This document shows positions 8,258-36,450 of a stretch of DNA of 64,000 nucleotides, piece by piece. This stretch comes from an uncultured Saprospiraceae bacterium (lineage in GTDB: Bacteria; Bacteroidota; Bacteroidia; Chitinophagales; Saprospiraceae), in the NCBI GenBank assembly GCA_937921775.1, contig CAKZUK010000033.1, forward strand, positions 1 to 64,000, read 5' to 3'. Within the stretch, counting starts at the first letter, position 1, and every line of letters starts with the position of its first letter. Under the pieces are notes generated by a model. That model was not told the origin of the DNA. It saw only the letters and a program-made list of their open reading frames with translations, and ran no database searches. The position numbers and the translations under genes are program-made.

Positions 8258-9037
8258 TTAAGCTTGTTCTGCTTGTACGCTATGCTTTAGCATTTGTCTA
8301 AAGAATAAATCAATAGCTTCCATATCGACTTCTTGTTGTTTTGGCAAAGCCTCTGCGTAAATTGAACAGGCCTTGCGACTCTCAAAAATAAATTCATCCA
8401 ATGCAGTAATTCGTTTAATTGCTTTGCCATCGTTTGTTTCTTTTTTAAGACGAATGAGTTGATGAACAGCTAACAAAACTTTAGGATGTTTTTCCAAAAT
8501 AGGAAGTAAATCCATAAAAAGCATTGGTGCAGGTGATTGATTTTCTTTAACCCAAATGGAAGCTAGAATTGAACGAACAATGATGAAGTATTTTTTTAAT
8601 GGAATTGTCTCCTTTTCAAAATGCTTTTTAATCAATGCATTGCTCAAACCTAGATAGTGATAAATCGCTTTGCGCGGTTGAAAATATTTTTCAGAAAGTT
8701 CGATTAAACTTTCTCTAAAAGCAGGACAACCTCCATATATCTTAGCAGATTGTAGCCATTCAAATAAAATAATATTTGACTTAGAAAGTAAAGACAATGT
8801 CTTCTTAAGATCCCAAGCTTGGGTATCCATGTTGTCTTCTATCAGTATAATGTTATCGGGTTTTTCATTGACGGATAGGTACCAGTCCGGAGAGTGGTTA
8901 TATATAATGCGAATATCGTAATCACTATTTGGAGATGGAACTCCCCAAGCTCTACTTCCTGATTCACATGCATAAAGAATATTGATCTTATGTTCGTCTT
9001 TCAGTTTGTCCAAATATGTTTCTATCTGTTGTGCCAT
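8258..9037 (-). CDS. RlaP-like nucleotidyltransferase
   Basis: Predicted DNA-polymerase-beta-superfamily nucleotidyltransferase of 259 residues. ESGSRAWG (residues 25-32) is the active-site Gly-Ser loop, and Asp39 and Asp41 in SDYDIR are the metal-binding pair. The remainder is helical with no other known motif. The layout agrees with the PF10127 family (B. subtilis YcgL; RlaP of some RNA-repair loci). No RNA ligase or kinase lies beside it, so involvement in RNA repair is unproven here. Single-gene unit, convergent with nfu. Confidence 0.8.
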   Translation of the reverse strand: MAQQIETYLDKLKDEHKINILYACESGSRAWGVPSPNSDYDIRIIYNHSPDWYLSVNEKPDNIILIEDNMDTQAWDLKKTLSLLSKSNIILFEWLQSAKIYGGCPAFRESLIELSEKYFQPRKAIYHYLGLSNALIKKHFEKETIPLKKYFIIVRSILASIWVKENQSPAPMLFMDLLPILEKHPKVLLAVHQLIRLKKETNDGKAIKRITALDEFIFESRKACSIYAEALPKQQEVDMEAIDLFFRQMLKHSVQAEQA

Positions 9038-32413: not shown

Positions 32414-32490
32414 GGGCCTATAGCTCAGTTGGTTAGAGCACCTGACTCATAATCAGGTGGTCCCAGGTTCAAGTCCTGGTGGGCCCACCA
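32414..32490 (+). tRNA. tRNA-Met or tRNA-Ile2 (CAT)
   Basis: A canonical 77-nt cloverleaf with encoded CCA. The acceptor is GGGCCTA with TGGGCCC-side pairing, the anticodon loop CTCATAA in stem CCTGA/TCAGG, and the T arm contains GGTTCAAGTCC. CAT could be elongator Met or the lysidine-modified Ile2. The GACTCATAATC anticodon arm resembles E. coli Ile2 more than elongator Met, but this does not settle it. It has its own promoter and terminator and looks native, unlike the array at 35170-36268. Confidence 0.93.
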
Positions 32491-34727: not shown

Positions 34728-34973
34728 TTTTTTTATTAAAAAATAAAAAAAAGATTCAACTTTCTAAGTTAACTGAAAGTCAAGTACTTACGCAGTTTTT
34801 AGCCAAACGCTTTCGCCTACGATTTCAAACAAACAAATATTTTTTTACTTACCCGGAACTTTCTTTCCCCTTCTCGCAGTTTACCTCATTGTAAATTAAC
34901 AACGAATCATTTTATAAAAAATGTTACAAACAAAACAACATATTAATCTTCATAATTTCTCGCTAGGGAAACA

Positions 34974-35117
34974 TTTCCTCGACTGTAATCGAGGAAAACA
35001 GGATTGCTATATCAGTGAACATTTTGAACTGATATCGCTCAGTATTGATTCCAGTATTAGAAACTCATTCTAATAACTCCACTTAAAGAAGTCGTAGTTG
35101 TTAGATAGCAACTACGA
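34974..35117 (+). ncRNA. four tandem perfect hairpins ahead of the tRNA array
   Basis: Stems: TTTCCTCGA/TCGAGGAAA (34974-34997, 6-nt loop), ATATCAGT/ACTGATAT (35009-35035, 11-nt loop), TATTAGAA/TTCTAATA (35055-35075, 5-nt loop) and TCGTAGTTG/CAACTACGA (35092-35117, 8-nt loop). Spacers are 11-19 nt. Stem sequences are unrelated to each other, so this is structural conservation rather than a sequence repeat. They do not fold as whole tRNAs. A structured leader or processing signal of the array transcript is possible. Confidence 0.5.
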
Positions 35118-35169
35118 AAAACCTTTCTCTTTTTATTTCTCATTTTTCGTTAATCGTAGTTTGCTCAAA

Positions 35170-35244
35170 GTGACGTAGTTCAATTAGTCAGAGCAGGGGG
35201 ATTGTCTATCCTCAAGTTGTCTCGATTTAATCGGAATCGTTACC
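35170..35244 (+). tRNA. tRNA-Asp-like (GTC), atypical T loop
   Basis: The acceptor pairs GTGACG with CGTTAC. D arm AGTTCAATTAGTCAGAGCA is normal. The anticodon loop is TTGTCTA in stem GGGGA/TCCTC. The T arm folds as CGATT/AATCG but its loop is TAATCGG, not TTCRANN, and no CCA is encoded. The loss of the T-loop consensus would weaken the D-T elbow, so function is doubtful. Confidence 0.5.
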
Positions 35245-35251
35245 GCGAAAT

Positions 35252-35325
35252 ACCTTAGTAGCCCAATTGGCAGAGGCGCTTGACTTAGAATCAAGATGTT
35301 GGGGGTTCGAGTCCCTCCTGAGGTA
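35252..35325 (+). tRNA. class I tRNA with anticodon TAG (Leu codons CUA/CUG)
   Basis: A complete cloverleaf: acceptor ACCTTAG/CTGAGGT, D stem GCC/GGC, anticodon loop CTTAGAA in stem CTTGA/TCAAG, a 5-nt variable loop, and T arm GGGGG-TTCGAGT-CCCTC with discriminator A. Bacterial Leu tRNAs are class II with a long variable arm; this one has none. No CCA is encoded. Its amino-acid identity is therefore uncertain. The anticodon is not an amber suppressor (that would be CTA). Confidence 0.75.
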
Positions 35326-35419
35326 CGGATGTAATTAAAATTTTCACTATCGAATTTACGCAATCGGGCATTTTAATTGAATCTAACTTAGAGGGCATTG
35401 AAGTTTAAATTTCCATTTT

Positions 35420-35495
35420 GGTGGGTCTAGTTTATCTGGCAAAACACTGCCTTGTGACGGCAGAGAATAGGGTTCGACTCCCGGGCACCACCCCA
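35420..35495 (+). tRNA. tRNA-His (GTG)
   Basis: Has the His identity features: an extra G (35420) opposite discriminator C (35492), and anticodon GTG in loop TTGTGAC closed by CTGCC/GGCAG. The D stem is GTTT/AAAC and the T loop TTCGACT. CCA is encoded at 35493-35495, the only one in the array. Two acceptor pairs and one T-stem pair are mismatched. Confidence 0.75.
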
Positions 35496-35513
35496 AGTTA
35501 GGAACTATGAAAA

Positions 35514-35584
35514 GTAAGTGTAGTATAATGGTATTATGTCTGATTTCCAATCAGAGGACCAGGGTTCGATTCCCTGTACTTGCT
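35514..35584 (+). tRNA. tRNA-Gly (TCC)
   Basis: 71 nt. Acceptor GTAAGTG/TACTTGC, typical Gly D arm GTATAATGGTATTAT, anticodon loop TTTCCAA in TCTGA/TCAGA, T arm CAGGG-TTCGATT-CCCTG, discriminator T as expected for Gly. No CCA encoded. The best-formed member of the array with Lys and Glu. Confidence 0.88.
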
Positions 35585-35609
35585 CTAGACTTCAAAAAAC
35601 TTAATAGTT

Positions 35610-35681
35610 GATCCGGTAGCTTAATGGCAAAGCTGCACTTTGTTAAAGTGCAAGATGTAGGTTCGAGTCCCACCCTGATCG
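35610..35681 (+). tRNA. tRNA-Asn (GTT)
   Basis: 72 nt. Acceptor GATCCGG/CCTGATC with one mismatch, D stem AGCT/AGCT, anticodon loop TTGTTAA in GCACT/AGTGC, T loop TTCGAGT with one T-stem mismatch, discriminator G as in Asn tRNAs. No CCA encoded. Confidence 0.82.
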
Positions 35682-35701
35682 CAAAACAAAAACCGATAAA
35701 T

Positions 35702-35798
35702 TCCGAAATGGCGCAAGGGTTAGCGTAGTCGTCTTATATGCGGAAGGTTGTTTGCCTGTCTAGCTGCGGTCAGATAGGTTCAAACCCAACTTTCGGGA
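35702..35798 (+). tRNA. tRNA-like, class II length, apparent anticodon TAT
   Basis: 97 nt. Acceptor TCCGAAA/TTTCGGG is perfect with discriminator A, and D stem GCGC/GCGT is fine. The anticodon arm GTCGT-CTTATAT-GCGGA is weak (one mismatch, two G-T) and reads UAU. A 29-nt variable region follows and the T stem is poor around TTCAAAC. Long variable arms belong to Leu, Ser or Tyr tRNAs, yet UAU is an Ile anticodon. A pseudo-tRNA or degenerating gene is likely. Confidence 0.4.
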
Positions 35799-35836
35799 CA
35801 AAAAAGGTAAATAAAAATGTGTTCACACTTTTAAAT

Positions 35837-35908
35837 GGCAATAAAGCTCTCGGGGAGAGAGCGTTCCGCTGAAAACGGAAAGGGCAGGGTTCAACTCCCG
35901 TGTTGCCA
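35837..35908 (+). tRNA. tRNA-Phe (GAA)
   Basis: 72 nt. Acceptor GGCAATA/TGTTGCC, D stem GCTC/GAGC, anticodon loop CTGAAAA in TTCCG/CGGAA, T loop TTCAACT with a three-bp strong core and outer mismatches, discriminator A as in Phe. No full CCA encoded. Confidence 0.8.
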
Positions 35909-35975
35909 CAATAGGTTATAATTTATGGAAAGCCTACTTTTTGATAGACTGTAATCTCAAGCTTCTTTTTTATTC

Positions 35976-36048
35976 TGCTCTGTAGCTTAACTGGTAGAGC
36001 AATCCACTTTTAATGGATGAGGTGAGAGTTCGATTCTCTCCGGAGCAA
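35976..36048 (+). tRNA. tRNA-Lys (TTT)
   Basis: 73 nt. Acceptor TGCTCTG/CGGAGCA, D arm TAGCTTAACTGGTAGAGCA, anticodon loop CTTTTAA in ATCCA/TGGAT, T arm with GAGAG-TTCGATT-CTCTC, discriminator A. Well formed; no CCA encoded. Confidence 0.9.
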
Positions 36049-36195
36049 CTTTTTTATATAGACGGGAGACCGAAGTCTGAAGGCGGAAGTTTCCCACTGT
36101 CGTGTAAACCAAAATTTTAATTTAGTCCAAGCACTTACTAGGAATACGGTATTTACATTACAAGGAAACTTCGGATTTCTGTCTTTTCCTTCCAC

Positions 36196-36268
36196 GCTCC
36201 TGTCGTCTAATGGTTTAGGACACCTGACTTTCTATCAGGAAATGCGAGTTCGATTCTCGTCGGGAGTG
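36196..36268 (+). tRNA. tRNA-Glu (TTC)
   Basis: 73 nt. Acceptor GCTCCTG/CGGGAGT, D arm TCGTCTAATGGTTTAGGAC, anticodon loop CTTTCTA in CCTGA/TCAGG, T arm GCGAG-TTCGATT-CTCGT, discriminator G as in Glu. Well formed; no CCA encoded. Last member of the array. Confidence 0.9.
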
Positions 36269-36450
36269 CAAATTCTTTCAGGTGTGAAGTTATAGTATCA
36301 ATAGTGTCAGGGGGCATATTTTCCTTTAGAGACTAAGGGCGCGCACGAGGAAATGACAAACGATATTTACGTTAGAAGGCAAACCTTTACATTTAAACTT
36401 TTGCGGTTTTACATTTTACATTTGAATAGGACTTCCGTCTAAATGTCTAA

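Follow-up and report, generated by a model that had tools for sequence, protein, structure and literature searches.

A chromosomal tRNA gene array in a Saprospiraceae bacterium and the conserved leader upstream of it, a candidate leader-peptide attenuator

Arrays of tRNA genes are mostly viewed as cargo of phages and mobile elements, and their purpose is unclear. The locus studied here, a dense tRNA array in the genome of a Saprospiraceae bacterium (6.28 Mb in 259 contigs, 92.7% complete), raises the question as to where such an array comes from, and what might govern its expression. The stretch of DNA analyzed, which is 64,000 nucleotides long, is called the window below, and all the coordinates given without any other label refer to it.

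The tRNA genes and their state of preservation

Seven clear tRNA genes located on one strand between positions 35252 and 36269 were identified by both ARAGORN and Rfam RF00005 (Table 1). Together with two degenerate genes (Asp and Ile), they account for the nine same-strand tRNA or tRNA-like genes reported within 1.1 kb in a preliminary description of this DNA. Since only about two dozen tRNA genes are scattered throughout the rest of the genome, the density of the array is far above chance, and based on the density of these seven clear and two degenerate genes, the locus can be classified as a tRNA array unit, i.e., many tRNA genes at high density.

Table 1. Features of the tRNA array and its leader in window coordinates, along with the best same-anticodon matches of the intact tRNAs, all of which are in chromosomal arrays
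Feature	Position	Strand	Evidence and remarks	Closest match
Promoter-like stretch	34855..34893	+	Alignment; GGAACT at 34855-34860, TTTACCTCATTG about 19 nt later; putative promoter	
Leader peptide ORF, 50 aa, MLQTKQHINLHNFSLGKHFLDCNRGKQDCYISEHFELISLSIDSSIRNSF	34921..35073	+	Stop codon TAA at 35071-35073 overlaps strand A	
Switch	35068..35117	+	Strands A 35070-35078, B 35093-35104, C 35109-35116; model R1, 66.6 bits	
Strand B' (TCGTAGTTTG)	35154..35163	+	Predicted partner of C; duplex -12.1 kcal/mol, z -4.2	
Degenerate tRNA-Asp(GUC)	35169..35245	+	Sequence comparison with array Asp; U37, T-arm destroyed	
tRNA-Leu(UAG), class I	35252..35326	+	ARAGORN and Rfam	93%, array Leu in L214
tRNA-His(GUG)	35421..35495	+	ARAGORN and Rfam; acceptor stem weakened, CCA encoded	77%
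tRNA-Gly(UCC)	35514..35585	+	ARAGORN and Rfam	89%, G004 array Gly
tRNA-Asn(GUU)	35610..35682	+	ARAGORN and Rfam; weakened	74%
Degenerate tRNA-Ile	35702..35798	+	Insertion of about 22 nt; 25.1 bits, below cut-off	G004 array Ile
tRNA-Phe(GAA)	35836..35909	+	ARAGORN and Rfam	85%, array Phe in L229
tRNA-Lys(UUU)	35976..36049	+	ARAGORN and Rfam	74%
Lys-Glu spacer	36050..36195	+	Short repeats, recurring elsewhere in the same genome and in a genus mate	
tRNA-Glu(UUC)	36196..36269	+	ARAGORN and Rfam; U37	81%, array Glu in L070

The gene previously described as a class I tRNA with a UAG anticodon is a Leu(UAG) gene, the short variable arm of which gives a length of 75 nt, as compared with 83-85 nt in the housekeeping Leu tRNAs. 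The Asp gene survives only as a remnant, the coordinates of which had to be corrected: its T-arm is lost and neither ARAGORN nor Rfam RF00005 gave any call at this position, but its 5' half (35174-35219) shows 93% identity to the Asp of the array of another Saprospiraceae genome (G004), and its acceptor stem is largely paired. The gene said to be UAU-like and to belong to class II does not reach the Rfam RF00005 cut-off of 29 bits. Since its closest relative is the Ile(GAU) of the G004 array, its sequence is best read as that of an array Ile(GAU) tRNA which has undergone an insertion before the T-arm and a change of anticodon. The damage previously reported in the arms of several members concerns Asp and Ile, which are broken, and His and Asn, which are weakened; those of Leu, Gly, Phe, Lys, and Glu look sound or nearly so. 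His is indeed the only member of the array encoding its CCA end. The lack of CCA in the other members had been taken to be a foreign mark, which it is not, because only 3 of the approximately 21 housekeeping tRNAs found in the same genome encode CCA.

The collinear arrays of relatives contain larger numbers of tRNA genes, as well as the giant RNA GOLLD and TROVE/Ro60 genes. One or more tRNAs lie within about 1.5 kb of 15 of the TROVE loci, 32 of which were examined. Neither TROVE nor GOLLD was found in the genome to which the window belongs, and no match with GOLLD or any other known large RNA rose above the noise in the window. The window copy is a reduced one with nine genes, which has partly decayed (Asp and Ile) behind a leader which looks intact. 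The loss of partners, the broken or weakened genes, and the repeats in the Lys-Glu spacer are all features to be expected of a relic, that is, a once mobile or phage-borne array drifting toward pseudogenes without any present function. The fact that five of the tRNAs look sound and that the gene order has been kept (see below) makes this explanation doubtful.

A pyrimidine at position 37, adjoining the anticodon, is rare in tRNAs. It was present in all eight of the array Asp tRNAs which were collected without using U37 as bait (seven U and one C), whereas A37 was present in the one housekeeping and two phage Asp tRNAs compared with them. U37 was also found in 35 of the 62 array Glu tRNAs, 0 of the 12 viral ones, and 0 of the 4 housekeeping ones, but these fractions are biased because the U37-Asp pattern had served to detect the arrays to which most of the Glu tRNAs belong, and a search using the window array had yielded some of the Asp tRNAs. 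Array Asp or Glu tRNAs with a pyrimidine at this position occur in the window (36196-36269) and at loci L062, L063, L065, L072, L124, and L125. The idea that the tRNAs may confer resistance to tRNA-cleaving attack is possible in view of the pyrimidine 37 in the array Asp and often in Glu, and of the RNA-repair genes present at related arrays.

A chromosomal lineage of tRNA arrays

The array is chromosomal: its neighbors are ordinary chromosomal genes, and no integrase, phage structural gene, or other phage gene was found within 5 kb, as the preliminary description had already stated. Similar arrays occur in other Saprospiraceae genomes and in one genome of a neighboring family, where they lie between chromosomal genes at loci which vary. 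The intact tRNAs of the window show 74-93% identity to their best counterparts in chromosomal arrays, 63-79% to viral tRNAs, and 54-68% to housekeeping tRNAs, from which they are therefore strongly divergent. The closest array matches belong to other genera of Saprospiraceae.

The order of the genes was compared with that in eighteen arrays. It is collinear with those of L072 (7 of the 7 shared genes, 0 of 5000 shuffles), L064 (8/8, p 0.0002 versus shuffled orders), L214 (8/9, p 0.0006), L229 (7/8, p 0.001), and L242 (6/6, p 0.002). No collinearity was observed with the arrays of two phages, those on two viral contigs, Planctomycetes arrays, or a Kordia array (p 0.65-1.0). Since eighteen arrays were compared, a lone p-value near 0.01 carries little weight, but the lowest values hold. 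The closest tRNAs, the collinear order, and the 5' leader motif described below place the window array in a lineage defined here as the Saprospiraceae chromosomal tRNA arrays, not every member of which carries the leader motif.

The preliminary description likened this array to those of phages and conjugative elements, and suggested that it had been acquired from them. The likeness is correct as to kind, given the class I Leu, the wide choice of isoacceptors, and the GOLLD present in relatives, but not as to provenance, since every intact member has its best match in chromosomal arrays and the order is not phage-like. The similar content of phage arrays, the links between GOLLD and phages (PMC12286853), and the occurrence of a U37 Asp pattern in 17 IMG/VR contigs might suggest that the array was imported recently by a phage or conjugative element, whose tRNAs would resist a tRNA-cleaving defence or suit the codon use of the element. 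However, the chromosomal arrays of the family provide both the nearest tRNAs and the gene order, neither the leader pattern nor that of the array Leu tRNA has any match in IMG/VR, and phage genes and integrases are absent from the vicinity, which makes an origin of this kind very improbable.

Two ideas about the insertion site were rejected. No convincing duplicate of the 3' end of the tRNA-Met at 32414, as would be expected of an attachment site, flanks the array. Nor does the locus appear to be shared with relatives: a 77% homolog of the glycosyltransferase occurs in G006 without any tRNAs nearby, and the arrangement around the dehydrogenase homolog in G017 is not shared by other genomes. 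In the latter genome, a GOLLD RNA and two degenerate tRNAs are located at L119 6087-7163 (G017:C80), about 5 kb from the dehydrogenase homolog, and this may be an old shared locus.

Several other features of the genome carrying the window (G000) are worth recording. The housekeeping Asp, Glu, Gly(UCC), Thr(UGU), and Pro(UGG) tRNAs were not found in this 92.7% complete draft, and contigs C205, C145, and C106 end at the 3' end of a tRNA gene. An RlaP-family nucleotidyltransferase (RNA repair, PF10127) is encoded at 8258-9037, 26 kb from the array. A phage-like contig with DnaB, SSB, and RecT (L061 5252-5324, G000:C75) carries a tRNA-Cys and a tRNA with a UUA anticodon, which reads the stop codon UAA; TAA ends most of the genes on this contig despite the presence of this tRNA.

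The leader upstream of the array

The preliminary description overlooked a conserved leader located just upstream of the array (34855-35163), which consists of a GGAACT box, an ORF, and competing helices. The hairpin it contains is also present upstream of other arrays, including that of G004. A model called R1 was built from nine leader sequences, including that of the window, using helix B:C only. When 803 kb were searched with this model, 19 non-duplicate loci were obtained (E <= 2.1e-6), ten of which were outside the training set. Each of the 19 is followed, at a distance of 49-554 nt, by the first tRNA of an array, and the 1.5 kb preceding it is free of tRNAs. No match was found in 598 kb of controls comprising housekeeping tRNA loci, arrays of other lineages, and viral contigs. 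The window leader, although it is a training sequence, had the highest score of the 19.

The components of the leader are also conserved. At 15 of 18 loci, GGAACT occurs 55-101 nt 5' of the start codon (ATG) of the leader ORF, versus a background of 0.023 per 110 nt, and a TTTAnTATnTTG-like stretch often comes after it. Apart from one locus, where the contig begins too close to the motif, all of the 19 have an ORF, which is 42-55 codons long, and in these 18 loci the stop codon is at motif position +3 or +6, within or beside strand A. The N-termini of the peptides resemble M-L/Q-x-x-x-Q-H-I-N-F, and many of the C-termini end in PF. Most of the pairwise dN/dS values of the ORF range between 0.13 and 0.62, while two close pairs gave 0.94 and 1.47.

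Strand B is common to two helices, A:B and B:C, which are therefore mutually exclusive. Helix A:B, which had no role in selecting the sequences, is 95.3% paired over the 19 sequences, with compensatory changes at three pairs and a covariation score reached by 0 of 500 shuffles. Helix B:C, which partly determined the choice of the first leader sequences, is 96.1% paired, with compensatory changes at five pairs. The predictions also include a third helix, C:B', lying 22-36 nt further downstream (mean z -2.6 for the 19 loci); about 7 of the 19 loci have a U-tract after it, but the window does not. The predicted ground state of the window leader combines A:B with C:B' (-23.3 kcal/mol, versus -14.2 with B:C). 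With its short ORF ending at the switch and its mutually exclusive helices, the leader resembles a leader-peptide attenuator and would work like one, but there is no terminator U-tract in the window, and it is therefore only called attenuator-like here.

The leader might instead be a gene which encodes a small protein and has a hairpin of its own at the end, or else a palindromic DNA operator, either of which would be a chance neighbor of the array. The protein-level conservation of the ORF in some pairs and the lack of a U-tract behind C:B' in the window are consistent with this idea. We nevertheless consider it unlikely, since the leader is found only at the 5' ends of arrays and A:B and B:C, although mutually exclusive, have both been kept by compensatory changes, for which there would be no need in a lone terminator or palindrome. 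The retention of the ORF, the stop position, and all the helices in the window also argues against a relic. An integron attC-like interpretation of the inverted repeats was rejected, there being one element per array and not one per gene. The motif CGYAGTT, which the array leader has in common with the WYL-RtcB region, was dropped as a candidate operator because three of the five window copies proved to be switch strands.

Many other Bacteroidota arrays seem to be under a different type of control. They are accompanied by RtcB with a divergent WYL/WCX regulator, SPFH/slipin, TROVE, RlaP, or Rnl2, and a palindrome, CTACGCAA-N5-TTGCGTAG, precedes RtcB, WYL, and TROVE and occurs several hundred nt upstream of SPFH. 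This palindrome is probably the operator of the WYL/WCX regulator, judging from its placement at these loci, which is all that counts since its genome-wide counts are not above those of a reversed control pattern. With up to one mismatch, it is present at 14 of 64 leader-less array loci and at none of the leader loci. A WYL operator was therefore rejected as the regulator of the window array, where the operator is absent; nor does the window array belong to the group defined here as WYL-controlled RNA-repair/tRNA-array islands of Bacteroidota, as it lacks RtcB and SPFH. In the window genome, RtcB and WYL are on another contig with an imperfect palindrome between them, and a copy of the palindrome containing one mismatch precedes a hen1-pnkp-like pair. 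Palindrome sites were recorded at L329 9084-9212 (G000:C48), L354 2888-2908 (G000:C139), L125, L208, L258, L260, L278, and L285, as well as before an Rnl1-type ligase in G004. YrlA (Y-RNA-like) matches below the gathering score occur between the operator and SPFH in array islands (L261 3192-3258, L230 1842-1905, L246 1983-2059, L278 5202-5304, and L125 10017-10086).

Proposed role and comparison with known systems

We favor, with moderate confidence, the explanation that the locus is a resident Saprospiraceae chromosomal tRNA array, providing a second set of tRNAs behind a leader which acts as a leader-peptide attenuator. Transcription of the 50-codon ORF would be driven by a promoter near 34855. 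When no ribosome is present on the leader, A:B and C:B' would pair and the array would be off or weakly expressed. Since strand A contains the stop codon, a ribosome which is held there or at the last codons would cover A and free B to pair with C, which would prevent C:B' from forming, and transcription would run into the array. B:C pairing would thus turn the array on, and the signal would be hindered translation, upon which the array tRNAs might replace those which have been cleaved or are lacking. This model suggests an emergency tRNA supply in case of trouble in protein synthesis.

A broader generalization can be put forward only tentatively: Saprospiraceae may keep a divergent second set of tRNAs behind a ribosome-sensing attenuator, so that tRNA loss or drug-stalled ribosomes would switch on replacements, some of which (Asp and Glu) have a pyrimidine 37 that could resist the attacking nuclease, in what would amount to a tRNA-replacement response. 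If this is true, attenuation would control tRNA genes, and a conserved leader tying array transcription to ribosome behavior would give tRNA arrays a testable cellular job. Such a coupling would also tie the arrays to the RNA-repair genes RtcB, Ro60/TROVE, RlaP, Rnl2, and Hen1-Pnkp, which are present at related arrays or in the window genome. The leader also provides a sequence handle for finding further arrays of this kind. In the literature searched, mostly outside subscription papers, the array leader is undescribed, and we came across no report on tRNA genes under the control of a leader peptide, nor any on the Bacteroidota arrays considered here.

The arrays of Enterobacter phage EC152 and Gordonia phage Sixama resemble that of the window in their compactness and their mixed isoacceptors, and Sixama also has a class I Leu(UAG), but their order is not collinear with that of the window array and the tRNA identity is lower. 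Leader-peptide attenuators such as those of trp and tna consist of a short ORF followed by strands which form 1:2, 2:3, and 3:4 helices. The window leader shows the same layout, but it precedes tRNA genes, its stop codon is in strand 1, and it has no terminator U-tract. The tRNA array units of Mycobacterium are dense, contain GOLLD, and are linked to phages, plasmids, and HNH genes (PMC5966550, PMC6582537). They resemble the relatives of the window array in their density and their GOLLD, whereas the window array has neither GOLLD nor phage, plasmid, or HNH genes.

The closest experimental parallel to the window array is the trn operon of Anabaena PCC 7120, a plasmid-borne set of 26 tRNAs which is repressed by TrcR and induced by ribosome-targeting antibiotics, TrcR also repressing rtcB and a slipin gene (PMC10272220). 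That operon is located on a plasmid and controlled by a protein repressor, whereas the window array is chromosomal and has a predicted leader-peptide switch. The two systems are alike in that each provides a second set of tRNAs beside the housekeeping ones, and counterparts of rtcB and the slipin gene are present in related Bacteroidota arrays.
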